Shown: in pieces, positions 1,121 through 53,745 of the stretch | How positions within the stretch are numbered: position 1 is the stretch's first letter | How the letters are laid out: the number at the start of each line of letters is the position of its first letter | Source: Schaalia sp. HMT-172 | GTDB lineage: Bacteria > Actinomycetota > Actinomycetes > Actinomycetales > Actinomycetaceae | Direction: 5' to 3' | Length of the DNA stretch: 64,000 nt | Assembly: GCF_030644365.1 (NCBI RefSeq) | Contig: NZ_CP130058.1 | Location: 124,001-188,000, forward strand | Program-made: the position numbers and the translations under genes | Notes under the pieces: generated by a model | The model's database searches: none | What the model was told of the DNA's origin: nothing | The model's input: the letters and a program-made list of their open reading frames with translations, nothing else

Positions 1121-1230
1121 TTTCGCACGTAATTCCCATGTAAACCTTTCAGACATTGAATTGGCATCGTTGGAATTGCAGCGATTCCGGAGATAATTGA
1201 AAGTTCAGGCAATCGAATTGCATGCGAAAT
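1121..1230 (+). repeat. 107-bp family element R1 (hybrid ends)
   Basis: Intergenic element in forward orientation. The left end is of the ACGTAATT type and the right end of the GCATGC type, so the termini do not match; all other copies have matching ends. Inside are a decayed TTTCAGACATTGAA hairpin and CGTTGGAATTGCAGCG. It shares its left flank (GTGCGCTCGGCA) with R2. Confidence 0.85.
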
Positions 1231-1302
1231 TTCGGGTATGTGTCTCTGTCGTCACTCCTGGGTGCTGCAGTCGGGCCAGCGCGGCTATTGTGCGCTCGGC
1301 AT

Positions 1303-1410
1303 TTTCGCACGTAATTCCCCCGCGACTATTTCAAACTTTGAATTCAGGCCGTTGGAATTGCAACGTTTGTGGGGCTAATTAAAAACTGACCAAGCGAAAT
1401 TACGTGCGAC
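1303..1410 (+). repeat. 107-bp family element R2
   Basis: Forward copy with both ends of the ACGTAATT type. It contains TTTCAAACTTTGAA and CGTTGGAATTGCAACG. It lies downstream of the DUF559 gene stop and pairs with R3 on the other side of that gene. Confidence 0.9.
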
Positions 1411-1418
1411 TTTTGTGA

Positions 1419-1507
1419 TGTGTGCTCAAAGTGCAGTCCACTTCGGTGGAAATTGGCACTTTTGGGGTGTTTTGGGCGAGGTGGTCTACGGTTTGGGCAC
1501 ACTGCGG
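1419..1507 (+). repeat. 89-bp direct repeat, copy A
   Basis: Begins TGTGTGCTCAAAGTGCAG and ends GGGCACACTGCGG. A near-identical copy lies at 2746-2834, so the two flank the DUF559 gene in direct orientation. Confidence 0.9.
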
Positions 1508-1703
1508 TTGAAACCGGAGCCGGGGGCGGGCTCGGGCCGGTCTCAGGGACCTATACGCTCGACTGAGGGTGGATGGAGCGCAAGCCTTGCCCAGGCCTCG
1601 TCCTTGGGTGCATGACGTATTCTTCCCCGGACCCCGGACTCCGGACCCCGGACCCCGGACCCCGGACTGAAGCTTGTCCGGTGCGACAACCGAGACGTGC
1701 GGC
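1508..1703. other. Intergenic remainder with 7-bp tandem repeat
   Basis: No gene is seen here. Bases 1626-1669 are a tandem array of a 7-bp CCGGACC unit. A copy of the recurrent CAGGCCTCGTCC motif lies near 1592-1603. Confidence 0.6.
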
Positions 1704-2711
1704 TTACTGGCCACCGAGGAGCGTGCGGATCTGCCCGAGGATCTCATCGGGATGTGCGAGCGCCTCCCACCGAAATCGTCGGATTTGCCATCCCTGGGCT
1801 TCGAGCAGGCGCTGGCGGCGCTCCTCGGCTTCGATCGACCGGTGGACGGAATCGACGTCGGAGCCGTACTTGCCACGGCCGTCGAACTCGATGCCGATGC
1901 GCGCCTCCGGCACTGCGATGTCGATGAAGTACCACTTGCCGGAAGCCGACACCGGATACTGTGTCTCCAGCCCCGATAGTCCCCCGCAGATCAGGAGATA
2001 GAGCAGTCGAGACTCTCCCACGCTGTCGCAGCCCGCATCCGCGTGAGTGAGCACCCAGCGGGCGGAAGTCACGTTCCTCGTTCCCTGACCCGAGGAACCG
2101 ATCATGCGCTGCAAACGGGCGCGGTTAACCTCCTCGCGTTGGCGTGAATCGTCCCGGTAGAAACGCCGGTATCGCGCCAGTTCGTGCAGGCCCGCGCAGG
2201 CGACGACAAATGCTTCCTCCTGGTCGAGTGCTAACGCGCAGTCAATGATCGTGTCCTCGAGCGTTGCCCCCATGAGGTCCCCGTCGTAGCGATTCATCGC
2301 TGGTGATCGTCCCCCTCGCGGCCGGTGCGGGCGGACCGTGACGGCCGGAACATGGAGGTGGCCCGCGTGAATCTCGGGAAGCGTGACCGGACGCGGGTGA
2401 TGGTCCGAGGTCGTGGTGACGTGCAGCGGATGCTCGTGCAGAAGCGGTAAGTCACGGAGCCACGCGGCGGTGGGGCCGGATGCGATCAGGTGCGGGTGCC
2501 TGTACTGAAGGGCCAGTAGCCGCGCCAGATCGACGGCCACGCTCGGGGCAGGATGCGTGGTGATTGCCTCGGAGTCGAGGTAGTAGCCGGGAGCGATCCT
2601 CACGAGTTCGCCTCGTTGCGCGCGACGAGCCAGTTCCCGGCGCGCGCCGTTATCCCTGTTCGCAGTTGTGTGTGCGTGCTCCGCAAGGGTGCGGACCGCA
2701 GATGCATCCAT
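1704..2711 (-). CDS. AbiEi-like winged-helix / DUF559 (PD-(D/E)XK-type) protein
   Basis: 335 aa. The start is placed at ATG 2711 because AAGGAG lies just upstream (about 2716-2723) and the open frame before it runs into the flanking 89-bp repeat. The N-terminal half (ARRELARRAQRGELVRIAPGYY) has the helix-turn-helix and 'G-x-Y' pattern of AbiEi-type antitoxins. The C-terminal third (YFIDIAVPEARIGIEFDG, then RRQRLLEAQGWQIRRFRW) matches the DUF559 nuclease-like fold, with acidic residues in IDIAVPE and IEFDG and a late 'GW-x-(I/V)-x-R-(F/Y)' strand. No toxin partner adjoins it. It is bracketed by repeats R2/R3 and by an 89-bp direct repeat, as a cassette would be. It could be an orphan antitoxin, a repair-type nuclease or a domesticated fusion of both. 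Confidence 0.8.
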   Translation of the reverse strand: MDASAVRTLAEHAHTTANRDNGARRELARRAQRGELVRIAPGYYLDSEAITTHPAPSVAVDLARLLALQYRHPHLIASGPTAAWLRDLPLLHEHPLHVTTTSDHHPRPVTLPEIHAGHLHVPAVTVRPHRPRGGRSPAMNRYDGDLMGATLEDTIIDCALALDQEEAFVVACAGLHELARYRRFYRDDSRQREEVNRARLQRMIGSSGQGTRNVTSARWVLTHADAGCDSVGESRLLYLLICGGLSGLETQYPVSASGKWYFIDIAVPEARIGIEFDGRGKYGSDVDSVHRSIEAEERRQRLLEAQGWQIRRFRWEALAHPDEILGQIRTLLGGQ

Positions 2712-2745
2712 TGTGGTCTCCTTTGACTTGCCTTCAATTGTAGGG

Positions 2746-2834
2746 TGTGTGCTCAAAGTGCAGTCCACTTCGGTGGAAATGGGCATTTTTGGGGTGTTTC
2801 AGGCGAGGTGGTCTACGGTTTGGGCACACTGCGG
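2746..2834 (+). repeat. 89-bp direct repeat, copy B
   Basis: Second copy of the 1419-1507 sequence with a few substitutions. It lies immediately upstream of the DUF559 gene and so covers its promoter region. Confidence 0.9.
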
Positions 2835-2926
2835 GCGAGGTGCGCGGGGCGGTCTCCGTGATGCGCCGGGCGGCCTAGCTTTCGGCTGCCCGCTCTGCCC
2901 CGGCCTCGGCATGGTTTCCCAAAAAT

Positions 2927-3033
2927 GTCGCACGTAATTCCCATGTAAACCTTTCAAACATTGAATAGGCGTCGTTGGAATTGCAACGTTTGTGGGGCTA
3001 ATTAAAAACTGACCAAGGGAAATTACGTGCGAG
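2927..3033 (+). repeat. 107-bp family element R3
   Basis: Forward copy with ACGTAATT-type ends (GTCGCACGTAATTCCC and AATTACGTGCGAG). The left flank GGTTTCCCAAAAATG is the conserved long flank of the family. The sequence after it (about 3034-3065) resembles that after R1. Confidence 0.9.
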
Positions 3034-3276
3034 ATTTTGTATATGTGTGTCTGCCATCACTCCTGGAGGTCTGTGGGGTGTGTCCGCAGGCACCGCAGCC
3101 GGCCCTGCCCACGGGCGGCGTGGTCAGCACCAACAAACCCGCAAGCACCGGGAATTTCGGTCGCGCCCCTGGTGTAGGGCGACTGAGCGTCCCCGAGTGT
3201 ACCCCGGGTGGCCTCGGGGACGAATCAGGGGAAACCTCCGTAGCGGTGACGCGCACCGCAGGCGCACCATGGATGC

Positions 3277-4044
3277 ATGAACACGAACACGACAATCGCG
3301 CAGGCCCCCGTGGCCGACCAGGGGGCCCCGGCCTCGTCCATCGTCCGACTCCAGGGCGTCTCCAAGATCTACGGAAGCGGCGACGCACAGGTGCGCGCCC
3401 TCGACGACGTGAGCGTCGGCTTTGGCGCCGGTGAATTCACCGCCATCATGGGCCCCTCCGGCTCCGGCAAGTCCACGATGATGCACATCCTCGCCGGCCT
3501 CGACGCCCCCACCTCCGGGCATGTCTTCGTCGAAGACACCGACATCACCACCCTGAAAGACACCGCGCTGACGAAGCTGCGCCGCGACCGCATCGGCTTC
3601 GTTTTCCAGTCCTTCAACCTGGTGCCCACCCTGGACGCCCGCGCCAACATCCTCCTGCCGATGCGCCTGGCCGGGGCCACCCCCGAGAAGGAATGGTTCG
3701 ACCTCATCGTCGCCTCCCTGGGCATCGCGGACCGACTGAGTCACCGCCCCTCCGAGATGTCCGGCGGCCAGCAGCAGCGCGTCGCCGTCGCCCGCGCCCT
3801 CATGAGCCGCCCCGCCGTCATCGTCGCGGACGAGCCCACCGGCAACCTCGACTCACACTCGACCGCCGAGGTCATGGACCTGCTGCGCCGCGCCGTCGAC
3901 GAACTCGGCCAGAGCGTCATCATGGTCACCCACGACACCTCCACCGCCGCCTATGCGGACCGCGTCCTCGTGTGCCGCGACGGACGCATCGTCTCCGACC
4001 TGCGCGACGTCACTGCCGACTCCCTGACCGCGGCGCTGCGCTGA
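3277..4044 (+). CDS. ABC transporter ATP-binding protein (MacB/LolD type)
   Basis: 255 aa. This is the nucleotide-binding subunit of a FtsX-type ABC system. Walker A GPSGSGKST is at residues 59-67, Q-loop FVFQSFN near 109-114, signature MSGGQQQR at 161-168, Walker B VIVADEPTGNLDS at 181-193 and the switch His in VTHDTS. The QSFNLVPTLDA and EPTGNLDS wording is typical of the LolD/MacB/SalX family, which handles lipoproteins, peptides or mechanotransmission rather than classical import. The ATG at 3277 is the first plausible start. The permease gene begins 29 nt after the stop, so the two form one transcription unit. The substrate is unknown. Bases 3325-3338 within the gene are an exact copy of the recurrent 14-mer (reverse orientation). 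Confidence 0.92.
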   Translation: MNTNTTIAQAPVADQGAPASSIVRLQGVSKIYGSGDAQVRALDDVSVGFGAGEFTAIMGPSGSGKSTMMHILAGLDAPTSGHVFVEDTDITTLKDTALTKLRRDRIGFVFQSFNLVPTLDARANILLPMRLAGATPEKEWFDLIVASLGIADRLSHRPSEMSGGQQQRVAVARALMSRPAVIVADEPTGNLDSHSTAEVMDLLRRAVDELGQSVIMVTHDTSTAAYADRVLVCRDGRIVSDLRDVTADSLTAALR

Positions 4045-4073
4045 ACGCGCGCCCACTCCCCAAGGCTCACCTC

Positions 4074-6608
4074 ATGTCTGCAACACACTCACTCCTGCGC
4101 GCAAACCTGCGCTCCCACGGCCGCCGCTACATCTCCACCGGCCTGGCCGTCGCCATCTCTACGGCCTTCATCGTCATCACCCTCATCGTCATGACGGGGA
4201 TGACCTCGGGCCTGACCTCCAGCGTCTACCAGCAGTACCGCGGCGGCACGATCGTCGTCTCCCAAGACAAGGACGCGCCTGAGGGCGCCATCGAAAGCGC
4301 CGAAAAAGCCCTGGCAGCAACCAGCGGTGTCACCGCCATCAAGCACATGGCTCAGTGGCCCGCCGACGCCCAAACCGACGCGACGCGCGCCGGCCTCTAC
4401 GTGTCGCCGCTGGCCCCCAAGCCCTTCGCGGACCTCGACCTGAGCGCCGGAACCGCCCCGACTGCCGACGACCAGATCGCCATCCCCGAGCACACGGCCT
4501 TGACCCTCTCTCTGAAGGTCGGCGACACCGTCCGCGTGCGCGCCGGATTCACCGAGGGCGACTACCGCACCCTCACCATCGTCGGCACCACCCGCTCGAA
4601 CACGATCAGCATGGGCATCCCCGCCTCTTACGTGACCGACGGCGGCTTCTCCGCGATCTTCGGAACGACCGCCTCCGGGCAGTTCATCGTCGCGACTTCC
4701 GGAGCGGATGCGGACAGCAACGCAAACCCTCCCAGCGCCACCCAGGACGAGTGGGTGGCGAGAGCAAACTCCGCGCTCAGCGGCATCTCGGGCGTGACCG
4801 TGACCAGCGTGCACAAGGCAATCCAGGACGACCTCAACCAGGCGCGCCTGGGAGCGTCCGTGACGATGGGAATCATGCTGATCTTCCCGGCGATCGCGGC
4901 GCTCGTGGCCTCTATCGTCGTCTCCTCGACATTCCGAGTGGTGCTCACGCAGCGCACCCGCGAACTGGCGCTACTGCGCACGCTGGGAGCGACCAGGCGA
5001 CAGGTCCGCTCGCTCGTGACCCGCGAGGCCCTCGCGATCGGAGCGATCTCGTCCGCGATTGGCGTCGCACTCGGCTGGCTGATTGGCGCGCTCGCGGAGG
5101 CGGGCACCGGCCTGGCCTCTAGCGTCGTCGCGGCACTGGCGGGGGCCTCCGTCTGGCAGCTCGCGTTCACGTGGCTCGGTGCCACCCTGTTCACGACCCT
5201 GGTCGGCGTCTTCCCGGCCCGCGCCGCCTCCCGCGTCGCGCCCGTCGCCGCCCTCGCCCCCGTGAACGAGGCCGGGGCCGCCGCCCGCAAGAAGCACACC
5301 GTCCGCTTCATCATCGGTGCGCTCATCGCGGTGGCCGGGTGCGGAGCTGTGGCCCTCGCGTGGTGCTCGGATAGTGGCGGCACGAAATTCCTTGGGGCTT
5401 TCGCCGGGTCGCTCCTGGCCCTCCTCGGCGCGCTGCTCGTCGCCTCCGTGCTGCTGCCCGCCCTCACCCGTGCGTTCGGCGCAGCCTTCCCGGGCACCCT
5501 GTCCGCCATGGCCCGCGAGAACACGATGCGCAACCCCGGCCGCACCTCCGCGACCGGCACCGCGATCATCATCGGCGTGACCCTGGTCGTCACCATCATC
5601 GTCGGCGCCGCCTCCGTGCGCACCACCCTGACCAACGCCGTCAACGACGCTCGCCCCTTCGACCTCATGGCGGTGTCCACAGATGGGGCGATCACCGACG
5701 ACCAGCAGGCCGCCATCGCGGCCACCGACGGCGTCGCCGCCACCGTCGCCCAGTACGCCGCCCCCGGCACCCTGACGACCACCTCGGGCGCGCCCGCCTA
5801 CGCTCCCGGTGAGGGAGCGGGCTCGGAGGACGAGGCCCAGGCCTCGTCGGTCATGATCACCGGAGAACCCGACTACACGGGCGTCACCCACTCGACCGTC
5901 ACCCAGCTGGGCGATGGTCAGGTGCGCGTCGGCGACGAGGCCCTGGCCGGGCAGACGCTGCGCCTGTGCGCCGACACGTGCGTGGACCTGAGCGCCACCT
6001 ACGACAAGAACGGCAGCGTCGGGGAGGCCCAGGTCTCCGAGAAGACCCTTCGGTCTATCGCGACGTCGCTTGAGCGTCAGGCGATCATCATCAAGATGGC
6101 CGACGGGGCCGACGCCGAGACCGTCCAGGCCGCGCTGCTCAAGGACTCGCACCTGAGCGTCAACGGCTCCGCGCTGGAGCGCCAGACGTACACCAAGATC
6201 ATCGACCGGCTGATGCTCGTCCTCGTCGGGCTGCTCGGCGTGTCCGTCCTGGTGTCCCTGGTGGGCGTGGCCAACACGCTGTCCCTGTCGGTCGCCGAAC
6301 GCACCCGCGAGAACGGGCTGCTGCGGGCGCTCGGCCTGACGCGCCGCCAGATGAAGAGCCTCCTCGCCCTCGAGGCGCTGTTCCTATCGCTGACCGGCGC
6401 GCTCATCGGCGTCGGCATGGGCGTCGCCTTCGGGTGGGTCGGCGTGATGAGCCTGCCGATTGACGGGGCCACCCCCGTGCTGAGCGTGCCATGGCTGCAG
6501 CTGGTCGGCGTGTGCGTCGTGGCCATCGTGTCTGCGCTGATCGCCTCCTGGCTGCCCGGCCGCCGCGCCGCGAAGGTCAGCCACTCGGAGGCGCTGGCCA
6601 CGGAGTGA
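4074..6608 (+). CDS. FtsX-like ABC transporter permease (two FtsX domains)
   Basis: 844 aa from ATG 4074; the open frame extends upstream but overlaps the ATPase gene. An N-terminal membrane segment (STGLAVAISTAFIVITLIVM) is followed by an extracytoplasmic MacB-like domain and a first three-helix FtsX block (IMLIFPAIAALVASIVVSS... ELALLRTLGATRRQVRSL). A second ectodomain and a second FtsX block (LVLVGLLGVSVLVSLVGV... NGLLRALGLTRRQMKSLL) end the protein. The duplicated 'LLR-(T/A)-LG-x-TRRQ' coupling motif contacts the ATPase in this family. Its length fits the roughly 800-aa two-domain actinobacterial permeases. It is convergent with the adhesin gene across a shared hairpin. Confidence 0.92.
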   Translation: MSATHSLLRANLRSHGRRYISTGLAVAISTAFIVITLIVMTGMTSGLTSSVYQQYRGGTIVVSQDKDAPEGAIESAEKALAATSGVTAIKHMAQWPADAQTDATRAGLYVSPLAPKPFADLDLSAGTAPTADDQIAIPEHTALTLSLKVGDTVRVRAGFTEGDYRTLTIVGTTRSNTISMGIPASYVTDGGFSAIFGTTASGQFIVATSGADADSNANPPSATQDEWVARANSALSGISGVTVTSVHKAIQDDLNQARLGASVTMGIMLIFPAIAALVASIVVSSTFRVVLTQRTRELALLRTLGATRRQVRSLVTREALAIGAISSAIGVALGWLIGALAEAGTGLASSVVAALAGASVWQLAFTWLGATLFTTLVGVFPARAASRVAPVAALAPVNEAGAAARKKHTVRFIIGALIAVAGCGAVALAWCSDSGGTKFLGAFAGSLLALLGALLVASVLLPALTRAFGAAFPGTLSAMARENTMRNPGRTSATGTAIIIGVTLVVTIIVGAASVRTTLTNAVNDARPFDLMAVSTDGAITDDQQAAIAATDGVAATVAQYAAPGTLTTTSGAPAYAPGEGAGSEDEAQASSVMITGEPDYTGVTHSTVTQLGDGQVRVGDEALAGQTLRLCADTCVDLSATYDKNGSVGEAQVSEKTLRSIATSLERQAIIIKMADGADAETVQAALLKDSHLSVNGSALERQTYTKIIDRLMLVLVGLLGVSVLVSLVGVANTLSLSVAERTRENGLLRALGLTRRQMKSLLALEALFLSLTGALIGVGMGVAFGWVGVMSLPIDGATPVLSVPWLQLVGVCVVAIVSALIASWLPGRRAAKVSHSEALATE

Positions 6609-6640
6609 CGCCGGTTGAGTGACGCCGGTTGAGTGACGGG
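6605..6640 (+). repeat. 14-bp tandem repeat at permease stop
   Basis: GAGTGACGCCGGTT occurs about 2.5 times, starting at the permease stop codon, so the stop region itself has been tandemly copied. Confidence 0.75.
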
Positions 6641-6675: not shown

Positions 6676-6710
6676 TCGCGTTTGTTAGCGTCTCGCGTCA
6701 TCGTCTCGCG

Positions 6711-9700
6711 TCAGGCGGCGCGCTTGCGGGCGGCGCGCCGGGCGGCCAGCGCCGAGGCGATCAGGGCCGCCGAGGCCGCGAGGTACGGGTACAGGCCCGG
6801 CCCGCCGGAGTAGGGGAGCGTCGGGGCCTCCCGGTCGGCCACCATGATGGTCGCCGTGAACTTCCCGTCGATGATCATGCCCTGCACGTCGAGCGTCAGG
6901 TCGTTGTAGCCGGAGTTGTAGACCTGGACGGAGGCCTTCGTCCACTTGTTTTGGTCGAAGATCTCAGTGTCGGGCATGACGTTCGTGCCCGTGCCGTCGC
7001 CCAGCTGAGCGCTGAGCGTGAAGCCGATCGGCTGCGGCAGGAGCAGGTGCCCGTCGGGGGCCTTCGTCTCGACGAGCCAGTACTTCTTGTCCGTCGCCAG
7101 CGTCGTCACCTTCCAGTAGTACGGGAAGGTGCCGGTGTTCGACGCATCCAGGGTCAGGACCGGGGTGGCCGAGCCGTTCACGCGCGGGTCCACGTCGTAG
7201 ATCGCGAACTCGGACCCGGCGAGCGGGTAGTAGGAGTAGCCCTGCGCGTCCACGTACTCGTTGGCGATCTCGGGCCACTGGAGATTCGTGAACTGGCGGC
7301 CCGCCTTCGCGATGACGACCGTTCGCACGCGCACGGGGGCGCACGCCTTGTTGTTGTCCGAGCCGTCCGAATCGCGGTTCGCGGCGGTGACGACCTCGCT
7401 GTACAGGCCGTATCCCGAGCGCGGCGCCCCCAAGTAGCGGCACGAGAAGCGCGACTCGTCCACGTTCGCCGCTTCCGAGCGCGTCACGTTGACGCGCACC
7501 CAGTATTCGCGCGAGGAGTTCGCGGGCAGCGCGTCGCCGTCGGTGATCTGGTAGCGCCCGCCCGCGGCGGCCAGCTCGGTCCCCGCGCCCAGGCCCTCCT
7601 GCGTGGCGGCCACGCGCACCGAGTTGATCGTCAGGCTCGAGGGGAAACCGGGCGCGACCTGCAAGGCGCCCGTGTCCGCATCTAGCGACCCGCTATTCGT
7701 CGCGGTCACCTTGTAATCCACGTCGAAGGTCACCGGCCCATTGCCCCCGTTCGCCACAAGCTCCTGCTTGACGCTCACGTTCGCGCTCTTCGCGTGGTTC
7801 GTGAACGTGCAGTCGATCGTTTGCGCGGCCGCACTGGCCGCCGCCCCGACGCCCGCGAAGTTGACGCTCTTCGTGTCGGTGTCCACGGTCGCGGCCACGG
7901 CCTCGCCCGCGCCGTTCACGCACGAGATCGACTCAAGCGTCCACTGCTCGTCGGGGTCCTCCAGGGTCACGCCGGTTTCCGTGATCGTGAAGTCGGAGTG
8001 GCCCACCAGGAACGCCCGGTACGAGGCCATGGATCCCTTCTTGTCCGCGCCGACGCCGGTGGGGGTGATGGTCTGGTTGAAGGAGCCGCCCTGGACCCAG
8101 CCGGAGACCGCCGTGCCGTCCGGGGTCGTCGACGAGGCCGTGGCACCGGCCGGCGCGTCAACCGCGTCGCGGGTCGCCGTGGAGGTGAAGGTCGCCGACG
8201 GTCCGGTCGCGTAGGTGCGGCCACCGTCCGTGGTGATGACCTTGTGGATGCGCACGTAGCGCTCCTGCGTGATCGAAGCGTACAGGCACGCGAAGCTCAT
8301 GTTGAGTTCCGGCGTGCTCATGGACGTCACCGGCTGCGCGCCCTCCGGGGGAGCGGCCGGGCACGAGGCACTGCGGCCGTTATCCGTGAAGCCCCAGATC
8401 GTCATGCGGTAGCGGATACCGTCCTTCTCCCACACCGTGTCGGGCAGCGTGGAGGTGGAGATGGAGACCGTGTCGTTCGAGGCCGGGGTGCGCAGGGAGA
8501 TATCGACGGCGTCCGGCCAGTCGTTCTCCGCGCGCTGTGCCTTCGCCCAGCCCGCGGTCTGGTTGATGTGGCCCTTCTGGCCCTTGTTGTACAGGTCGTG
8601 CGTGCCGTTGCCCGCGCCGACGTGCTGGGCGCACACGGTCTTACCTGTCAGCCACTGGTCTGTATTGCGGCCCTCCGGGTTGTAGAGGCGCGCCGGACCC
8701 GTGAACTTGCCTCTGATCTTGCGGCGGCTACCGTTCGCGGCCACCGATCCGTCAGGGTTCGTGTCGCACACACTGTTGGCGACGATGGTGTAGGCACCGC
8801 CCGCGCGCGGCACGACCGTGGTCTCCGTGTCGTCCTGGGACTCTTCGATGTCCCACGGGATCGCCCCCTGCATGGCGAAACCGTCACCCTGGATGCGCAG
8901 GTTCAGGTCCCCGTGGAAATACCGCTGCTGGCCAATATCGGTCAGCGTCTTCTGTTGCCTGCCCGTGCCTCGTTCCAAGTTGTTGAAAATCGGGAGGTTG
9001 TTGTTGCGCAGCGTGCCCAGCAGGAAGGGCTTGCCGGCCGCGACCGTGCCCGGCGTGGCCGGCTGGAAGCCCATCGCCGTCTGCTTCCACGGCGCGATCT
9101 TGCCCTGGACGGTGGTCTCGTTGTTGTAGAAGATGACGCCGTTGTCTGCGGGGTTTTCGCCCCACGGTAGCGAGCGCGTCGTATAGCTCCAGTAGCCCTG
9201 CGACGCCAGGGAGGACTCCAGCCACTGGGCGCGCTTCCAGCCTGTCCCGTCCTGCAGCGAGCCGCCCGGCCAGGGGCCCCACTGGTCTAGGGGCTTGACC
9301 CAGCCGTCGCGCGACCACATGTTCGGCTTGTAGGTCTCCATGTAGGCGTATCGGTCCACCTGGTTGCGCGTATCTTCGACCGTGCCGTAGTAGACCAGGC
9401 GGCGGAAGTTGTAGTCCCACACGCCCGGCTCGTCGCCGGGGTCGATGAAGGGGTAGGTGCGCTCGGTGGGCGAATTGTTGACGACCGAGTCCGTGAAGAT
9501 CGAGGCGACGTTGTTGATGGTGAAGGAGGCGCCGCCGGGTTCCTCCGCGGTTTGCGCGGTTTGCGTGGTTTGCGCGGCCTGCGCGGTTTGCGTGGTTTGC
9601 GCGGCCTGCGCGGGGGGCGCCACGACGAGGCCCACCAGGAGTGCCGATGCGCTCGCGGCCCACGCGCGCGCCGCGCGCCGGGCGTGAACGGCCGAGTGGG

Positions 9701-9743
9701 GCGACGCGGGCGTGGCGTGGCCGTGTGTGGATGTGCGATGCAT
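6711..9743 (-). CDS. LPxTG-type surface adhesin (paralogue of pilus tip protein)
   Basis: 1010 aa. The start is placed at the ATG at 9743, directly before a basic/hydrophobic signal peptide (HARRAARAWAASASALLVG... PAQA). An AQT/QAA 9-bp coding repeat follows the cleavage site. The N-terminal domain carries the signature GTVAAGKPFLLGTLRNNNLPI shared with the other two adhesins and resembling 'choice-of-anchor K'-type domains (tentative). Later come Cys-paired segments, beta-rich repeats and a SpaA/prealbumin-like domain with an E-box (YWLVETKAPDGH). The sorting signal is LPYSG at about residue 976, followed by a hydrophobic helix and an RRAARKRAA tail. It would be exported and anchored by sortase. 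It is transcribed away from the pilus cluster and lacks its own sortase. Confidence 0.88.
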   Translation of the reverse strand: MHRTSTHGHATPASPHSAVHARRAARAWAASASALLVGLVVAPPAQAAQTTQTAQAAQTTQTAQTAEEPGGASFTINNVASIFTDSVVNNSPTERTYPFIDPGDEPGVWDYNFRRLVYYGTVEDTRNQVDRYAYMETYKPNMWSRDGWVKPLDQWGPWPGGSLQDGTGWKRAQWLESSLASQGYWSYTTRSLPWGENPADNGVIFYNNETTVQGKIAPWKQTAMGFQPATPGTVAAGKPFLLGTLRNNNLPIFNNLERGTGRQQKTLTDIGQQRYFHGDLNLRIQGDGFAMQGAIPWDIEESQDDTETTVVPRAGGAYTIVANSVCDTNPDGSVAANGSRRKIRGKFTGPARLYNPEGRNTDQWLTGKTVCAQHVGAGNGTHDLYNKGQKGHINQTAGWAKAQRAENDWPDAVDISLRTPASNDTVSISTSTLPDTVWEKDGIRYRMTIWGFTDNGRSASCPAAPPEGAQPVTSMSTPELNMSFACLYASITQERYVRIHKVITTDGGRTYATGPSATFTSTATRDAVDAPAGATASSTTPDGTAVSGWVQGGSFNQTITPTGVGADKKGSMASYRAFLVGHSDFTITETGVTLEDPDEQWTLESISCVNGAGEAVAATVDTDTKSVNFAGVGAAASAAAQTIDCTFTNHAKSANVSVKQELVANGGNGPVTFDVDYKVTATNSGSLDADTGALQVAPGFPSSLTINSVRVAATQEGLGAGTELAAAGGRYQITDGDALPANSSREYWVRVNVTRSEAANVDESRFSCRYLGAPRSGYGLYSEVVTAANRDSDGSDNNKACAPVRVRTVVIAKAGRQFTNLQWPEIANEYVDAQGYSYYPLAGSEFAIYDVDPRVNGSATPVLTLDASNTGTFPYYWKVTTLATDKKYWLVETKAPDGHLLLPQPIGFTLSAQLGDGTGTNVMPDTEIFDQNKWTKASVQVYNSGYNDLTLDVQGMIIDGKFTATIMVADREAPTLPYSGGPGLYPYLAASAALIASALAARRAARKRAA
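9541..9612 (-). repeat. 9-bp in-frame coding repeat (Ala-Gln-Thr)
   Basis: The 9-bp unit (GTTTGCGCG and variants on the + strand) is repeated about seven times within the adhesin gene just after the signal peptide and encodes AQT/QAA triplets. Because the unit is a multiple of three, slippage would change length without breaking the frame. Confidence 0.8.
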
Positions 9744-9988
9744 GAGTACTCCGTCGTCCCGGGGCCCGTGGTTATTACAAAACTGACTAGTGGTCATGCT
9801 ATCTGTGCTGATAGGCACGTGCAAACATTTGTCACACCTGGATGGTTTGTGGGGATAGTCATTCGAGGCTAGTCTCGGTCGGCCCGTTTCTCTGCGCGCT
9901 TGGGGTGTGTGGGCTGCTTGGCCCCTTGTCTGCCCGGGGGCGTGTTGGGTGCGGGGTGCGGCGGGTGCGGCGGGTGCGGCGGGCGCAG
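9744..9988. other. Upstream region of minus-strand adhesin
   Basis: No gene is seen. Bases 9770-9870 are less GC-rich than the surroundings and probably hold the adhesin promoter on the minus strand. Bases 9951-9985 are a 9-bp GCGGGTGCG tandem array. Confidence 0.45.
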
Positions 9989-10044
9989 CCCTGGTGACCC
10001 ATGGTCCCGATGGTCCCCCAACGATGTCATGGTTCCTCAACAAC

Positions 10045-10151
10045 GTCGCACGTAATTCCCATGTAAACCTTTCAAATGTTGAAATCAGATCGTTGGAATT
10101 GCAACGTTTCTAGGCTTTGTTGAAAGTTCAGGCAATCGAATTACGTGCGAC
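10045..10151 (+). repeat. 107-bp family element R4
   Basis: Forward copy, 107 bp, ACGTAATT-type ends, CGTTGGAATTGCAACG inner hairpin and TTTCAAATGTTGAAA hairpin. It has the long conserved flank on the left and the short CTTTTAGGGG-type flank on the right. Confidence 0.92.
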
Positions 10152-10232: not shown

Positions 10233-10339
10233 GTCGCACGTAATTCCCATGTAAACCTTTCAAATGTTGCAATTGGATCGTTGGAATTGCAACGTTTCTA
10301 GGCTTTGTTGAAAGTTCAGGCAATCGAATTACGTGCGAC
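10233..10339 (+). repeat. 107-bp family element R5
   Basis: Forward copy, 107 bp, nearly identical to R4, with which it forms a tandem pair between the adhesin promoter and the end of sdaA. Confidence 0.92.
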
Positions 10340-12362: not shown

Positions 12363-12468
12363 GTCGCACGTAATTCCATGTAAACCTTTCAAACTTTGAA
12401 ACCAGACCGTTGGGATTGCAACGTTTGTGGGCGGTGTTGAATTTTCGGGTAGCCGAATTACGTGCGAC
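12363..12468 (+). repeat. 107-bp family element R6
   Basis: Forward copy, 106 bp, ACGTAATT-type ends, in the divergent region between sdaA and the pilus operon. Long flank (GGTTGCCGAAAAATG) on the left and short flank (CTTTTGGGG) on the right. Confidence 0.9.
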
Positions 12469-21767: not shown

Positions 21768-21874
21768 GTCGCATGCAATTCCCTCAGGATTATTTCAAAC
21801 ATTGAAATCGAGTCGTTGGAATTGCAACGTTTGTGGGCAGTGTCAAAAACTGACCTGGGGGAATTGCATGCGAC
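21768..21874 (+). repeat. 107-bp family element R7
   Basis: Forward copy, 107 bp, both ends of the ATGCAATT type. Long flank GGTTCCTCAACAATG on the left and short flank CTTTGGGG on the right. Apart from this element, 21648-22003 holds no gene. Confidence 0.92.
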
Positions 21875-23467: not shown

Positions 23468-23575
23468 GTCGCATGCAATTCCCCGGAGGGGTCGTTGGCG
23501 ACCCTTACGAAAACCGCATGATTTCAATGGTCTGGTTTCAAATCTTGAAATAGTGGTGGGGGAATTGCATGCGAC
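23468..23575 (-). repeat. 107-bp family element R8
   Basis: Reverse-orientation copy, 108 bp, ATGCAATT-type ends, short flank CCCCAAAA on the left and long flank (ACATTTTTGGGTAA) on the right. The inner segment has AACCGCATGATTTCAA in place of the CGTTGGAATTGCAACG block. It pairs with R9 around the DUF559 gene. Confidence 0.92.
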
Positions 23576-24617: not shown

Positions 24618-24726
24618 TTTCGCATGCAATTCCCCGGCGCGGTCTTTTTAGGACCTCGCGAAAACCGCATGATTTCAACGATCCGATTTCAAACATTGAA
24701 AGAGTTGTGGGGGAATTGCATGCGAC
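24618..24726 (-). repeat. 107-bp family element R9
   Basis: Reverse copy, 109 bp, ATGCAATT-type ends, long flank (ACATTGTTGGGTAAC) on the right. Together with R8 it brackets the DUF559 gene. Confidence 0.92.
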
Positions 24727-25878: not shown

Positions 25879-25985
25879 GTCGCATGCAATTCTAAAATGG
25901 TAAGTTTTGGAGTCCTCTGAAAACCGCGGAATTTCAACGATGTGGATTCAAAAATTGAAATAGCGGTGGGGGAATTGCATGCGAC
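25879..25985 (-). repeat. 107-bp family element R10
   Basis: Reverse copy, 107 bp, ATGCAATT-type ends (left end decayed to GTCGCATGCAATTCTA), long flank ACATTTTTGGGTAAC on the right. It lies between convergent genes; the rest of 25789-26132 has no gene. Confidence 0.9.
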
Positions 25986-27575: not shown

Positions 27576-27682
27576 GTCGCACGTAATTCCCTCCCGGGAA
27601 TTTCAAACTTTGAAATCGGACCGTTGAAATCATGCGGTTTTCGGCCGTACTCTAAAACTGACCCGGGGGAATTACGTGCGAC
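27576..27682 (+). repeat. 107-bp family element R11 (core inverted relative to flanks)
   Basis: 107 bp, ACGTAATT-type ends. The outside flanks are in reverse order (short CCCAAAA on the left, long ACATTTTTGGGTAACC on the right), but the core reads forward: TTTCAAACTTTGAAA near the left end and AAAACTGACC near the right. The rest of 27468-27766 contains no gene. Confidence 0.9.
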
Positions 27683-28980: not shown

Positions 28981-29124
28981 GGCTTCCTTCTCTCGGGGGG
29001 TGTTGGGATCAAGGGTATCCCCGGGGGGTGTGTGTCTGCTCGCCTTTGGCTGTGTTCGGCCCTGTGACGTGGGCAGACGCACGCCGCGGGCGGCTTTCCG
29101 GCCCCGGCTGGCCCCTCCCCAAAA

Positions 29125-29231
29125 CTCGCACGTAATTTAACTTGGTCAGTTTTTGAGTATGGCTTAAAACGTTGCAATTCCAACGGCTAGAGTTCAAAGT
29201 TTGAAAGAGTGATGGGGGAATTACGTGCGAC
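29125..29231 (-). repeat. 107-bp family element R12
   Basis: Reverse copy, 107 bp, ACGTAATT-type ends with left-end change CTCGCACG and AATTTAAC. Contains CGTTGCAATTCCAACG and TTCAAAGTTTGAAA. It lies upstream of the phosphoribosyltransferase gene; bases 29265-29305 after it are GGCGCCGGCCCTA tandem copies. Confidence 0.9.
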
Positions 29232-35206: not shown

Positions 35207-35313
35207 GTCGCATGCAATTCCCTTGGGTCAGTTTTTGAGTGCGGCTTAAATCCGCATGATTTCAACGGTCTGATTTCAAATGTTGAAGTAGGTGCGAGGG
35301 AATTGCATGCGAC
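35207..35313 (-). repeat. 107-bp family element R13
   Basis: Reverse copy, 107 bp, ATGCAATT-type ends, GGTCAGTTTTTGAG near the left, CCGCATGATTTCAACG inside, and long flank ACATTGTTGGGTAAT on the right. The rest of 35117-35464 contains no gene. Confidence 0.92.
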
Positions 35314-36493: not shown

Positions 36494-36600
36494 GTCGCAC
36501 GTAATTCCCTTTGGTCAGTTTTTGAGTGCGGTCGAAAACCGCATGATTTCAACGGTCCGATTTCAAAGTTTGAAAGAGAGGTGGGGGAATTACGTGCGAC
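36494..36600 (-). repeat. 107-bp family element R14
   Basis: Reverse-core copy, 107 bp, ACGTAATT-type ends. Both outside flanks look like the long type (TACCGACAAATG on the left, ACATTGTTGGGTAT on the right), unlike other copies. Confidence 0.9.
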
Positions 36601-43224: not shown

Positions 43225-43331
43225 GTCGCACGTAATTCCCTCGTGAATATTTCAGACTTTGAAAATGCGTCGTTGGAATTGCAATGTTTGTGGGGTGTCT
43301 CGAAAACTGACCGACATAAATTATGTGCGAC
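43225..43331 (+). repeat. 107-bp family element R15
   Basis: Forward copy, 107 bp. The left end is GTCGCACGTAATTCCC and the right end is decayed (AAATTATGTGCGAC). Long flank GGTTCCCTAACAATG on the left. The hairpin is CGTTGGAATTGCAATG. Confidence 0.9.
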
Positions 43332-44571: not shown

Positions 44572-44590
44572 GGGCATATTGTCGCACCCT

Positions 44591-47099: not shown

Positions 47100-47138
47100 G
47101 CGTGGGCTCACGCGAGTGACGAGTGAACAGGAGGCGTG

Positions 47139-49312: not shown

Positions 49313-49316
49313 AGCG

Positions 49317-49520: not shown

Positions 49521-49566
49521 GCCGTAATGGCATCACTCTGATACCAGCCTTGTGGCGGTGGCCCTC

Positions 49567-50220
49567 CTACAGCCAGCCGGCGGCGCGGGCCAGGGACGCG
49601 GCCTCGGCGCGGGTGCGTGCGTCCATCTTCAGCATCGACGAGGACACGTGGTTGCGCACCGTCCCCTGGCTGAGATGGAGGGAATGGGCGATGTCGGCGA
49701 TCGTGCCTCCGCCTTCGACCTCGCGCAACACGTCGGCCTCGCGATCCGTCAGGGGAGAAGACCCCGCCGCCAGCGCCTCCAACGCCAGATTCTGGTCGAT
49801 CACCCGCCCGCCCGCGGCCACCGTCCGCACGCCCTCGGCGAGAGTCTCGACCGGCGCGTCCTTCACCGTGAAGCCCGTCGCCCCCGCGTCGAGGGCGCGC
49901 TGCAAGTAACCCGGGCGCCCGAAGGTCGTCACGATGAGCACGCGCACCCCCGGGAAACGCTCCCGGATCGCCTGCGTGGCCGTGATGCCGTCCATGCGGG
50001 GCATCTCGACGTCGATGATGGCGACGTCGACGGGGGCACTCGCGCGGGCAGGGGCGTGGGCAGGGGCGTCCGCTGATGCCAGGCGCGCCAGCTCATCGAG
50101 TGCCTGCGCGCCGTCTGCGGCCTGCGCGACGACCTCAATATCGCGTTCCAGGTCCAGCAACCCAGCCAACGCCCCGCGAATCATCGCCTGGTCATCGGCC
50201 ACGAGTACCCGAATCGTCAC
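49567..50220 (-). CDS. LuxR-family response regulator (DesR/NarL type)
   Basis: 217 aa from GTG 50220 with AGGAGGG upstream. The receiver domain has VLVADDQAMIRGALAG and phospho-acceptor Asp70 in VDVAIIDVEMPRMDG. A 15-residue Ala/Pro insert (DAPAHAPARASAPV) precedes that strand. The LuxR HTH (SSPLTDREADVLREVEGGGTIADIAHSLHLSQGTVRNHVSSSMLK) ends the protein. It is the partner of the histidine kinase gene 200 bp upstream on the same strand, and both follow an ABC-2 exporter, the usual DesKR-exporter operon. Confidence 0.92.
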   Translation of the reverse strand: MTIRVLVADDQAMIRGALAGLLDLERDIEVVAQAADGAQALDELARLASADAPAHAPARASAPVDVAIIDVEMPRMDGITATQAIRERFPGVRVLIVTTFGRPGYLQRALDAGATGFTVKDAPVETLAEGVRTVAAGGRVIDQNLALEALAAGSSPLTDREADVLREVEGGGTIADIAHSLHLSQGTVRNHVSSSMLKMDARTRAEAASLARAAGWL

Positions 50221-50387
50221 GTCACCCTCCTGTCTGCCTGCGCTTGGGGTACTAGGCTAGCGCAGGTAAGCGGCTCATTTCTCCGATCAGCCACCACTCA
50301 GGACGAGGCCGACTCCCCCTCCCGGGGACCGCGCAAGAGCCGGGAAGGGGACACTGCCTCGTCGAGGGGAGTGCAGCGGGACAGTCA

Positions 50388-50454
50388 GGACGAGTGGGCG
50401 GCGGGTGCACCGTCGAAGGTCACGACGAGTGAGCGGCGGGTGTGGCCTCGAAGG
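50388..50454 (-). repeat. Imperfect tandem copy of the kinase gene 3' end
   Basis: 50388-50419 and 50423-50454 match at about 26 of 32 positions. The second copy covers the last codons and stop of the kinase gene (ending AHSS) and the first lies just past the stop. The remaining gap to 50221 has no gene. Confidence 0.65.
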
Positions 50455-51523
50455 ACAGCGCGAGCGTCCACGTGGAGCCCGACGCGCCCCAGGTGAGCGT
50501 GCCCTCGTCGCCGACCAGCTCGGACAGGCCCGCCAGGCCCGACCCCGATCCCACGCTCGACGCCGCGTAGGCGGCCGAGTATCCGTCGTTCGTGACCGTC
50601 ACGCCATCAGGGGAAAGACGTACCCGCACCCACGAGGGGCGCGCGTGCAGGATCGCGTTCGTGACCCCCTCGCGGATCACGTGGGCGGCGGCGGCCGAAC
50701 GAGGCCCCGACGGCGGCTCGCCCTCGTTCGTGATCTCGGCGTCGATGCGCGCGACCTCCAGAAGCGACCGCGCCTCCTCGAGCTCCTCTCCCGGGGACAA
50801 GGCCCGCGTGGCCGCCACGATGCGGCGCACGTCAGCCAAGGCCTCGTTCGACTGCGCGGTCACCGCGCGAATCTGCTCGCGCGCCTCCTGGACGCGCCCA
50901 GCCTCCAGGAGGCGACCCGCCAGCTCGGACACCATCGTGATCCCCGTCAGCGAGTGCCCCAGGATGTCGTGCAGATCCGTGCTCAGGCGCGCACGCTCCG
51001 CGGCCTTTGCGCGCTGGATCGCATCCTGGCGGCGCAGATGCTCGCGGGCCGAACGCTCCATGCGCCAACGCGCCACCCCCACGAAGACACACAGCAGCAC
51101 CAGGTACCAGCCCATCCACAGGGGCTCACCCTGCGCGTAAGCGGCCACACCCGCGATAGCGGTCACCGGCACGAGGCCCGCGACGATGAACCTGCCCGGC
51201 GCCTGAAACACCCACGCGACCAGCAGATACGACGTCAGCATGAACGCGTGTGGCGTGTCAACGGAAACCGCGTACACGAGGTAGGCAACCGTCGCCGCCA
51301 CCAGCGCCGCGTGGGAGAGGATGAATGGCCTCGTGAAGGAGTTGCGCGCGGGCAGGGGATTGGCCAGCCACGTCGCCGAGTTCACGACCGCGAGGAGGGC
51401 GCACAGCCCGATGAGGCCCGCGCGCTGGGCCGGATCCGGCAGTTCCAGGGCGTAGGCGAGGGGAAACCCCATGAACAGCATCCACGGGGCCGCCCACGCC
51501 AGGGAGATCAAGCGCTCCTTCAT
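50420..51523 (-). CDS. DesK-type sensor histidine kinase
   Basis: 367 aa. Five hydrophobic N-terminal segments (about residues 5-155) form the sensor. The dimerisation helix ERARLSTDLHDILGHSLTG contains phospho-acceptor His185 as in the HisKA_3 family. The ATPase domain has HVIREGVTNAILHAR (N box) and GSGSGLAGLSELVGDEGT (G box). ATG 51523 lies 9 nt after the exporter permease stop, so kinase expression is tied to the exporter. The last codons are partly duplicated just beyond the stop. Confidence 0.92.
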   Translation of the reverse strand: MKERLISLAWAAPWMLFMGFPLAYALELPDPAQRAGLIGLCALLAVVNSATWLANPLPARNSFTRPFILSHAALVAATVAYLVYAVSVDTPHAFMLTSYLLVAWVFQAPGRFIVAGLVPVTAIAGVAAYAQGEPLWMGWYLVLLCVFVGVARWRMERSAREHLRRQDAIQRAKAAERARLSTDLHDILGHSLTGITMVSELAGRLLEAGRVQEAREQIRAVTAQSNEALADVRRIVAATRALSPGEELEEARSLLEVARIDAEITNEGEPPSGPRSAAAAHVIREGVTNAILHARPSWVRVRLSPDGVTVTNDGYSAAYAASSVGSGSGLAGLSELVGDEGTLTWGASGSTWTLALSFEATPAAHSS

Positions 51524-51532
51524 GACACCAGC

Positions 51533-52321
51533 CTAGCGAGCCGTGTCGTGGGACGCGCCCCACCAGGCGATGCCCGCCGTGATAACCACCCACCCGACGA
51601 TGTTGAGCCACGCCGCCGTCGGCATCGGGACGGTACCGGCGACCGCGTAGATCGCCTGGACGGCGCCATACAGGGGCGTGAAGGGCGCGACGTGGGAGAC
51701 GAAGGGCGGCATCTGCTCCAGCGGGATGAACATGCCGGACACGAACGCGCCGAACACCATGACGAACGCCGAGGCGCTGTAGGCGTTCTCGCCCTTAATC
51801 GTGTAGCCGCACGCCAGGCCGATCAGCGCACCCAGCGCCGACAGCGCGACGACCACCGCGGCGCTGGCCGCCCACGCGCCCGCCGTCATCTTTGAGCCGG
51901 TAGCCAGACCAACACTGAAGCAGATGAGCGCGATGAACGCGCTCAGCGCCACCAGGGCCGTGAGGCGCACGAGGAGGATCACCCACGGCTGGATGGGGGT
52001 CAGCGCGTACATGCGCGAAATGCCGGTCGTGCGCTCGACGGACAGCGTCGCGCCGAGCGACCCGCCCACCAGGATGACGCCGTACGTGGTCATCATGACG
52101 ACCATCGCGGCGGCCACGTTGCCGCGCCCGGTCTGCGTGGTGCGCGCGGCCTCGGTCATCCCGAACATCGCGTACATGAACAGGGGCAGGAGCAGGGCAA
52201 ACGCCATATTCCATGGGTTGAGGATGTGCGACAGGAACGTCGCGCGCCACAGCTTCCCGGCCCCCGTGAAGGGGAAGGGGATCGGTCGGTCGGTGGTACG
52301 CGCGGGTGCGTGGGTGGTCAT
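51533..52321 (-). CDS. ABC-2 type transporter permease
   Basis: 262 aa from ATG 52321 with GAAGAAGGAATC before it. Six membrane helices of the ABC-2 family: FLSHILNPWNMAFALLLPLFMYAMFGM, VVMMTTYGVILVGGSLGATLSVERTTGISRM, then ILLVRLTALVALSAFIALICF and a GAFVSGMFIPLEQMPPFVSHVAPFTPLYGAVQAIYAV block, which is the standard C-terminal motif. Works with the ATPase encoded 104 nt upstream. Such exporters with DesKR regulators often handle antibiotics, lipids or lantibiotic-like peptides. No substrate gene is near. Confidence 0.9.
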   Translation of the reverse strand: MTTHAPARTTDRPIPFPFTGAGKLWRATFLSHILNPWNMAFALLLPLFMYAMFGMTEAARTTQTGRGNVAAAMVVMMTTYGVILVGGSLGATLSVERTTGISRMYALTPIQPWVILLVRLTALVALSAFIALICFSVGLATGSKMTAGAWAASAAVVVALSALGALIGLACGYTIKGENAYSASAFVMVFGAFVSGMFIPLEQMPPFVSHVAPFTPLYGAVQAIYAVAGTVPMPTAAWLNIVGWVVITAGIAWWGASHDTAR

Positions 52322-52425
52322 GATTCCTTCTTCGTGTGTCGTGTCTGCGTTCGTGGGGCGTGGGCTTCGGCGTCGGCCTCGGGACGAGGCTGGGGCCGGC
52401 TCATCGGGTTGGGCGTTCGTCACGC

Positions 52426-53148
52426 TCACTCGGCGTCGGCGTGGGAGGTGATGCGCTCGAAGACGTCTTCGAGGTCCTCGTTGTCGGCGACGACCTGCTC
52501 GGTGGGAGCGTCCAGGAGGACCTTCCCGGCGTCGATGATGACGATGCGATCGGCCTCCTTGCGGGCCTCGGTCAGGTAGTGCGTGGCGAAGAGGAGCGTG
52601 CGGCCCTCCGCGGCCTCGGCGTGCATCGTGTCCCAGAATGCGCGCCGCGCCAGGGCGTCCATGCCGGCCGTGGCCTCGTCGAGGATCAGGAAGTCCGGGT
52701 TGCCGGACAGGGCGAGGGCGAGGCGCACGCGCTGCACTTCGCCGCCGGAGAGCTTGTTGAGCGGGCGCTTCGCGAGCTTCGTCAGGTTCGTGCGCTCGAG
52801 GAGCTCGTCGGTGGGGATCGGATCGGCGTGCATCGCGGCGACCAGGTCGATCGTGTTGCGGACCTTCCCGTCGCGCGGTAAGGCACCGGTCTGGAGCATC
52901 GCGCCCACGAGGGAGCGGCGCACGGCCTCGCGTGGGCTCATGCCGTAGACGCTGATGTCGCCCTGCGTGGGGGTGGCCAGGCCGAGGACGATGTCCAGGA
53001 AGGTGCTCTTGCCCGCACCGTTGACGCCGAGGAGCGCCACGATTTCGCCGGGCATGAGGGTCAGGTTCACGCCGCGCAGGGCGTCGACGTGGCCGAAAGA
53101 CTGATGAATGTTCGTCGCCTGGAGGGCGGGCGTTGCTTGTGCGTTCAT
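52426..53148 (-). CDS. ABC exporter ATP-binding protein
   Basis: 240 aa from ATG 53148 with GGGAG just upstream. Walker A LLGVNGAGKST (near residue 40), signature LSGGEVQRVRLALAL and Walker B FLILDEATAGMDALAR followed by ATHYLTEA (switch His). The DEATAGMD form of Walker B and the short 'NGAGKST' loop are typical of daunorubicin/CcmA-type exporters. It heads the ATPase-permease-kinase-regulator operon. It is separated from the upstream intergenic repeats R16/R17 by about 170 bp that show nothing recognisable. Confidence 0.92.
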   Translation of the reverse strand: MNAQATPALQATNIHQSFGHVDALRGVNLTLMPGEIVALLGVNGAGKSTFLDIVLGLATPTQGDISVYGMSPREAVRRSLVGAMLQTGALPRDGKVRNTIDLVAAMHADPIPTDELLERTNLTKLAKRPLNKLSGGEVQRVRLALALSGNPDFLILDEATAGMDALARRAFWDTMHAEAAEGRTLLFATHYLTEARKEADRIVIIDAGKVLLDAPTEQVVADNEDLEDVFERITSHADAE

Positions 53149-53319
53149 GGCTCCCAGTCTGCGCGCGTTTAGGTGGGGCCGGAAGTGCCCTTTGATGCAG
53201 GAGGAGCCATGACAAATGTCAGGGGTGGGGGCTGTCACTCGCGCGTGGGCCCTCTGTCGCGTGTAATCCCGCCGTCAGCCGGTGAATGAGTTGCGCGGGA
53301 GTGGTGTCCTGCCCTGAAA

Positions 53320-53425
53320 GTCGCATGCAATTCCCCCAAGCGAGTTTTTTGAGATGCCCGGAAACGTTGGAATTGCAACGGCGCTATTTCAATATGTGAA
53401 AGGTTGACAGGGAAATTGCATGCGA
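53320..53425 (-). repeat. 107-bp family element R16
   Basis: Reverse copy, 106 bp, ATGCAATT-type ends with right end GGAAATTGCATGCGAA. The inner hairpin reads CGTTGGAATTGCAACG in a reverse-oriented core, the opposite of R12, so the hairpin itself has flipped. Confidence 0.85.
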
Positions 53426-53638
53426 AAACGTATCGGTTGGGCGGCCATACCCTTCAGTCGCGGACTCGCCGCCAGCAAACGGGGGAATTGCACCATTAGA
53501 GGTGCGACACGCCGACGACACGCCGAGGGGAGGCTTCTAATGCTGCAAAACCCCCATCGCCACCGGTGTGCCGAGCGCCGGTGGGCTCGGGCCAGGCCAC
53601 GGTGCCCGCGGGGGAAACGGGGTGAGCGCCAGATTAGT
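53426..53638. other. Region between R16 and R17 with a split terminal repeat
   Basis: GGGGGAATTGCA (53481-53492) and GTGCGAC (53502-53508) together resemble a right end of the family, interrupted by 9 bp. Probably a decayed copy. No gene is seen. Confidence 0.5.
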
Positions 53639-53745
53639 TTCGCACGTAATTTAACTCGGTCATTTTTCGAGATGGCCCACAAACGTTGCAATTCCAACGA
53701 TTGCGCTTCAAAGTCTGAAATATGTGGAGGGGAATTACGTGCGAC
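53639..53745 (-). repeat. 107-bp family element R17
   Basis: Reverse copy, 107 bp, ACGTAATT-type ends (CGCACGTAATTTAAC on the left, GGAATTACGTGCGAC on the right), hairpin CGTTGCAATTCCAACG. It is the second element in the same intergenic gap but of the other end type than R16. Confidence 0.9.

Follow-up and report, generated by a model that had tools for sequence, protein, structure and literature searches.

Palindromic intergenic elements of about 105 bp with two matched end types in the genus Schaalia

REPIN/RAYT systems consist of dispersed paired palindromes. The RUP element of Streptococcus pneumoniae is 107 bp long and occurs in 108 copies, its ends resemble IS630-Spn1 and it inserts at TA, the Correia/NEMIS elements of Neisseria measure ~107 and 155 bp and have 24-bp ends, TA and a target duplication, and for the 127-bp ERIC/IRU element of enterobacteria both TA and a target duplication are listed (PMC2229807); in Vibrio cholerae ERIC the terminal repeats are lost (PMC2267715). 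Here we analyse a family of short palindromic intergenic elements in Schaalia sp. HMT-172, starting from 17 copies in a stretch of 64,000 nucleotides (contig NZ_CP130058.1, positions 124,001 to 188,000; hereafter the window). Genomes are coded G000 for the source genome and G028 for S. odontolytica FDAARGOS_732, all other G numbers being congeners.

As far as the available excerpts of the cited papers allow comparison, the Schaalia elements are comparable to RUP, NEMIS or ERIC in size, copy number and placement (PMC2229807, PMC2267715, PMC12306157, PMC10969869). They share length, copy number, intergenic dispersal and terminal inverted repeats with RUP, but their ends, searched as exact matches in G000, lie on no element the size of an insertion sequence (IS), and TA is absent. 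Like Correia/NEMIS they are palindromic, multicopy and of fixed length classes with common ends, but these ends are 12 bp long and of two matched forms, no duplication was seen, and the classes of 105 and 83 bp have unrelated interiors. With ERIC/IRU they have in common the intergenic palindrome and an orientation to transcription that matters in both, and the end loss of V. cholerae ERIC parallels an ongoing loss in the G028 and G034 copies; unlike ERIC they have neither TA nor target duplication, and the two-state switching of their ends is not seen for ERIC in those excerpts. They resemble REPIN/RAYT as dispersed paired palindromes, but the Schaalia unit measures 105 bp and has a single outer stem, and no Y1 transposase was found in the genus. 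No description of the family was found in the excerpts seen of open-licence literature on palindromic or inverted repeats in Schaalia or Actinomyces, where the inverted-repeat passage for Actinomyces odontolyticus concerns a laboratory transposon (PMC12369343) and the miniature inverted-repeat passage under Actinomyces concerns Porphyromonas (PMC3672468).

Copy number, anatomy and spread

The 17 intergenic elements claimed by the first-pass annotation of the window were all confirmed at their positions (Table 1), as were two stretches said to be empty (12.5–21.7 kb and 53.8–64 kb). Their claimed near-constant length of about 107 bp also stood: the cores, measured from TCGCA to TGCGA, are 104 bp (1), 105 bp (14) or 106 bp (2) long, or ~106–108 bp if one flanking base per side is added. 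The end sequence TCGCAYGYAATT is matched exactly by 33 of the 34 window ends and with a single mismatch by the other; allowing up to two mismatches, the window holds 39 matches, 34 of them element ends, against 9.7 expected and a maximum of 21 in 100 shuffles.

The genome-wide model search that the same annotation had proposed gave a high copy number. A model (R1) built from the window elements finds at least 97 places in the 2.53-Mb genome of G000 with strands merged; because scoring covered 150 of 446 first-look candidates, this is a lower bound. Exact sequence at both ends was seen at 77 places, and the reversed control pattern gave no match. Exact 12-mer ends number 173 in this genome; the 97 elements account for 172 and an 83-bp variant for the remaining one, which leaves no exact end standing alone and no IS-sized carrier in G000. 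The model matches 11 of 35 Schaalia genomes (G031 and G024 with one or two rows each) and the exact pattern nine of the 35, with copy numbers per element-bearing genome from 1 to about 100. An order-wide sample yielded the exact pattern in 5 of 396 genomes, all Schaalia, and in none of 108 other genera. Among the matches listed, records with exact elements are labelled Schaalia or Actinomyces, plus two labelled Sanguibacter and Xylanimonas. The genomes behind the latter two labels, Sanguibacter keddieii 250_SKED and Xylanimonas cellulosilytica 352_XCEL by name (NZ_JVOJ01/JVKM01; L012, L022 and others), are apparently members of the genus Schaalia. The viral contigs searched held no element, and plasmids searched with one 551-base stretch gave no match. 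The family is thus real, abundant and restricted to one genus in the samples searched.

Within the first fetched set, a search allowing cores of 94–124 bp returned 176 distinct exact elements of 105 bp (127), 106 bp (35), 107 bp (11) or shorter (3), and the distance between inverted end pairs in the fetched sequence peaks at 105–107 bp, with six further pairs at 83 bp. Outside the core, conservation covers CCCANCAAT to its left and ATTTTKGGG to its right, with nothing beyond; inside it is confined to the boxes TTTCAAA..TTTGAAA and CGTTGGAATTGCAACG, the remaining interior drifting. The TTTCAAA/TTTGAAA hairpin noted in the window is general to the elements. The second hairpin, CGTTG..CAACG, which had been called usual, is complete in 9 of the 17 window copies by our own reading of the alignment, with a CRTTGAAAT..GCGG variant in six and one change in two. 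The 83-bp class (six distinct copies, all of the CATGCA type described below; Table 1) carries the 12-base ends of the 105-bp elements around an unrelated interior; we remark that 105 and 83–84 bp are near ten and eight helical turns.

A structured-RNA reading offered by the first-pass annotation was not supported, as the window gave no Rfam match at gathering score and the elements no strong internal covariation; a tRNA search of the window returned nothing. Such base-paired covariation as exists lies mainly in the end switch and in pairs of the TTTCAAA box, and the strand-specific asymmetry of G-U versus A-C, taken over 220 elements, is 14:10 collapsed and 19:11 uncollapsed. The outer stem encloses a loop of ~80 nt.

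Matched ends and lineage-dependent constraint

Positions 6 and 8 of the ends are two-state, reading CACGTA or CATGCA. Although the search pattern permitted all four combinations at these positions, the arms are of matching type in 265 of 277 elements, with one full hybrid, in the window, and 11 elements with a point variant there. The prevailing type varies among genomes. A tree built from the interiors requires at least 20 changes of type, whereas shuffled labels need 50.7 on average and never fewer than 45, so that end type follows lineage loosely. Comparison between two species at orthologous positions gave 150 pairs, 60 of them with both arms switched; the pairs of low identity are possibly different elements within one gap. 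The switched share is 11 of 64 for orthologue pairs whose interiors are at least 0.85 identical, and 7 of 23 where each near flank agrees in at least 16 of its 20 bases (for instance window 35208 versus G011 and G019).

Most loci outside G000 were fetched because of an exact element, and counts on them lean towards good ends; the syntenic stretches L131–L140 and the genome-wide counts are free of this bias. The strict constraint on length and paired ends suggested by the earlier annotation was borne out there: scanned with the central 44-base block only, the syntenic stretches yielded 24 elements in five congeners with 45 of 48 ends perfect, and no element in G034, G028, G025 or G031. Across six orthologous sets (28 elements, 53 pairs) the ends, masked by removal of their two-state columns, are 99% identical, the interiors 85% and the flanks 75–80%. 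The six-species set includes 64 orthologue pairs whose interiors are at least 0.85 identical; in these, 14 of 1280 masked end sites and 478 of 5161 interior sites are different, an end divergence ~nine times below that of the interior, and nine pairs from stretches fetched regardless of their ends gave 2/180 and 79/727 respectively. Between G028 and G034, in contrast, nine pairs differ at 6 of 216 unmasked end sites and 28 of 732 interior sites, that is, with nearly equal decay; the odds contrast between the two sets has a z of 3.6 with shared ancestry ignored.

The same division appears in the places found by the model, where both ends are exact at 77/97 in G000 and 59/86 in G023 versus 6/26 in G028 and 7/24 in G034 (pooled, 136/183 versus 13/50). 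Among the relics fetched (20 stretches from G028, 15 from G034, four from G025 and one from G031, a subset of their places), perfect ends make up 16/46 in G028, where a duplicate row contributed two to the total, and 11/34 in G034; the duplicate, L217, was removed for the divergence counts. The ends are therefore upheld in one species set and not, or no longer, in G028 and G034. Near-perfect paired ends in several species, set against their decay in a close cousin, point to a cellular reader of the end pair that is still at work; as the ends come in two matched states, this reader should vary in specificity or exist as two versions.

Mobility, gap preference and direction

Units differ between species in presence or absence at orthologous gaps. 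The insertion polymorphism sought by the first-pass annotation was found at this level, the copy at 29124 being present in three congeners, absent from the orthologous gap of five and ambiguous in one more. An automatic search for empty sites was swamped by other intergenic repeats. Tandem copies ~200 bp apart occur, and G023 has three identical tandem elements 202 bp apart (L096:3462–3970). Closely similar copies at unrelated loci have the core in common and, judged by eye, ~5–15 further bases outside it. At window 25880 the G010 counterpart has an interior of another subfamily (0.78 identity), with 19 and 20 of 20 near-flank bases alike; since the interior is swapped and the near flanks are kept, we read this as a unit replaced in place, which may have come about through recombination between copies or renewed insertion, the data fitting either.

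An open frame entering an element at L103 was considered as an autonomous partner and rejected, being the N-terminal remnant of an IS30-like transposase beside the element. Transposases with HTH_38 and rve domains, which we take to be IS30-like, occur at L203, L209 and L212 (1465–2745), with remnants in several genomes at L201, L202, L204, L207 and L210, and adjoin palindromic elements at L201, L210 and L212; the elements may be insertion targets for this transposase.

Using genes from our own codon-usage caller, the claim that the elements lie only between genes held for G000, where none of the 97 overlaps a gene by more than 20 bases, whilst three elements outside G000 overlap a predicted gene. 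The intergenic status of the element at 12363 hinges on the start of a 703-residue open reading frame whose serine dehydratase domain begins at residue 160. That the elements show no preference for convergent, divergent or tandem gaps proved incorrect. With neighbours on both sides, 96 G000 elements lie in 36 convergent, 7 divergent and 53 tandem positions; divergent gaps hold 7/96 elements versus 49/218 of the gaps of at least 100 bp (p 0.001; elements are set against gaps, and the gap set includes element-bearing gaps), and convergent gaps are enriched. The other genomes, with 58 convergent and 16 divergent, show the same depletion and enrichment. In the analysis behind this second tally, 244 of 277 elements were counted, the remainder having an ambiguous direction (3), a gene overlap (3) or one neighbour missing (27). 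In tandem gaps the elements run with the genes in 40 of 53 cases in G000, and 58 with and 18 against in the other genomes. Median distances to genes are 150–400 bp; within 60 bp there is a co-oriented upstream gene for 8–9% and, in convergent gaps, an opposing gene for 22%.

The elements also tend to follow replication. Taking dnaA as origin and assuming the terminus opposite, 70 of 97 elements run along replication in G000, 43 of 66 on the main contig of G023 (p 0.02; 26/40 after thinning, p 0.06–0.08), 18 of 26 in G028 (p 0.11) and 19 of 24 in G034; G023 and G028 are weak alone, and G028 and G034 share orthologues. The dnaA gene lies ~20 kb from the contig start, and taking the contig start as origin gave identical counts. 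Among G000 elements in convergent or divergent gaps, whose flanking genes set no common direction, the ratio is 31:12 along replication; in its tandem gaps, where direction is confounded with genes, leading elements are 28:3 where genes lead and 10:12 where genes lag. Element density rises towards the origin.

Several further features were seen around the elements. The same genomes hold another palindromic intergenic repeat with GGGGGAATTGCACTACACGAGG-like ends (L064 ~1460, L112 ~1200), and repeats of the TTAGCGGG/CCCGCTAAT type and of the GCTGCACCTCTTACG type are clustered in spacers at L187:3009, L173 ~3100 and L065:5294, and at L191 ~3000. The stretch G000:C1:826500–838000 (L162) has a lower GC content (0.60) and many mutually similar ~75-bp units around two elements. 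In the window, a large protein at 6711–10043 (−) has SpaA/prealbumin-like domains, and TTATCCACA, presumably DnaA-box-like, adjoins the element in a divergent gap at ~24600 and is kept in four congeners.

Table 1. Positions of the 105-bp class elements in the window and of the 83-bp elements in fetched loci
Core (bp)	End type	Coordinates	Strand	Remark
105	CACGTA left, CATGCA right	1123..1227	+	Sole full hybrid of end types (277 elements)
105	CACGTA	1305..1409	+	
105	CACGTA	2928..3032	+	
105	CACGTA	10046..10150	+	
105	CACGTA	10234..10338	+	188 bp from 10046 copy, 3 core differences
104	CACGTA	12364..12467	+	
105	CATGCA	21769..21873	+	
106	CATGCA	23469..23574	−	Orthologous gap occupied in five congeners, other end type in three
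106	CATGCA	24620..24725	−	Orthologous gap occupied in four congeners
105	CATGCA	25880..25984	−	G010: like near flanks, different interior
105	CACGTA	27577..27681	+	Orthologous gap occupied in four congeners
105	CACGTA	29126..29230	−	Orthologous gap without element in five congeners
105	CATGCA	35208..35312	−	Orthologues in G011, G019, G022: CACGTA on both arms
105	CACGTA	36495..36599	−	
105	CACGTA	43226..43330	+	One right-arm mismatch
105	CATGCA	53321..53425	−	
105	CACGTA	53640..53744	−	
83	CATGCA	L042:2477		
83	CATGCA	L064:1362		
83	CATGCA	L089:7789		
83	CATGCA	L112:1300		
83	CATGCA	L136:1866		
83	CATGCA	L175:2413		

Possible explanations and their meaning

In order to account for the established copy number, length, end pairing, two-state matching, clade-dependent constraint, gap preference, direction and differences in presence or absence, we propose, with confidence that is about even, that the elements are one non-autonomous family of a Schaalia clade, like miniature inverted-repeat transposable elements (MITEs), with paired ends that would be read in trans and that several species still maintain. 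The proposed trans-acting factor would recognise the two 12-base ends as a matched pair, at a spacing of ~105 bp that may represent ten helical turns, and would move or replace whole units. Such movement or replacement would explain why the ends are near-perfect, why neither lone ends nor larger relatives are seen, why like ends can enclose an unrelated 83-bp interior, and why units differ among species. The interior drifts except in its two short palindromic boxes. The factor may have been lost in S. odontolytica FDAARGOS_732 and its relative G034, where the ends would then decay much like the rest, and copies would survive mainly downstream of genes, tending along transcription and replication, whether via insertion or selection.

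A number of results weigh against this proposal. No fixed-offset target-site duplication stands out in 265 copies (best z 5.1 in ~3000 comparisons), a test that covers fixed-offset repeats and that an irregular duplication would escape; TA lies directly outside the left end in 2/265 and the right end in 2/265, TA termini being absent; and ten selected filled/empty cases gave no clean junction, half of them concerning repeats and the flanks differing too at empty sites. The partner transposase gene with the same terminal repeats, raised by the first-pass annotation, was not found for exact ends in G000, inexact ends and other genomes having been examined for an IS partner within the fetched parts alone, and the Y1 transposase PF01797 is found in 0 of 35 genomes of the genus, with 5 of 14 control genomes positive. 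Unmasked ends in the 64 six-species pairs differ at 75 of 1536 sites, half the interior rate, and orthologue pairs are non-independent. The contrast between lineages is also graded: G022 has 28 exact pairs for 72 both-strand model matches and G019 has 34 for 92, which looks intermediate. In G025 both ends are exact in 3/7 places, not distinguishable from G000 and G023 (p 0.08), and in G031 in 0/1, these last two being small counts. Finally, dead MITE copies would lose their ends, so that maintenance in place needs continuing replacement or selection. The elements share with bacterial MITEs a short unit (about 100–200 bp) with terminal inverted repeats, many dispersed copies and, between species, presence or absence at orthologous sites. 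The MITE suggestion of the first-pass annotation names the nearest kind, but target duplication and TA termini were not found; as these two marks, an exact-end partner IS and a Y1 transposase all fail, we do not file the elements as MITE, RUP/NEMIS/ERIC or REPIN.

A host function is a possible, if tentative, alternative: the elements would be bound by a protein of the chromosome or of transcription requiring a pair of sites on one face of the helix, selection would hold them where they are, and their mobility would lie in the past. Ends kept at orthologous places, strict length, the avoidance of divergent gaps, a direction along transcription and replication in several genomes and the greater number of copies near the origin all fit such a site; 24 of 35 genus genomes without a model match, a copy number from 1 to about 100, the decaying ends of G028 and G034 and the lack of a fixed gene distance (medians 150–400 bp) do not. 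It is unlikely that a mobile element spread them, in an ERIC- or SPRITE-like way, as intrinsic terminators acting in both directions or as hairpins for 3′ RNA processing: the stem is bordered by CCCANCAAT and ATTTTKGGG, convergent gaps are enriched and tandem-gap elements lie with their genes (40:13 in G000, 58:18 elsewhere), but the median gene distances are 150–400 bp, with 8–9% within 60 bp of a co-oriented upstream gene and 22% of an opposing gene in convergent gaps, the loop of the outer stem is ~80 nt, and there are no notable compensatory changes beyond the end switch (G-U versus A-C 14:10).

We disfavour as very improbable the view that the elements are plain dead MITE relics whose perfect ends stem from recent bursts; near-identical tandem and dispersed copies do exist and the G028 and G034 copies resemble relics, but neutral relics would lose ends and interior alike, whereas shared positions elsewhere diverge by ~9% in the interior and ~1% in masked ends. 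Insertion into a single-stranded lagging template would yield a direction that follows replication, as seen here for palindromic, intergenic and dispersed units, yet with PF01797 not found in 35 genomes of the genus whilst 5 of 14 controls were positive, we find it scarcely credible that these are REPIN-like units moved by a REP-associated Y1 tyrosine transposase.

Beyond the family recognised in trans that we favour, it is conceivable, though doubtful, that the elements form a chromosomal paired-site code, in which a dedicated protein would read two identical 12-base half-sites ten (or eight) turns apart, written in two interchangeable alphabets, CACGTA and CATGCA, with both arms changing at once, and with about a hundred units along replication and transcription. 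Small palindromic repeats are common, and sequence seldom allows a decision between passenger and working part; if such a code were true, these repeats would be working parts and not passengers. Ends kept at shared positions in several species and decaying in a close pair amount to a natural experiment, and a gene held by the first species set and lost in the second would be a candidate for the factor that reads the ends.

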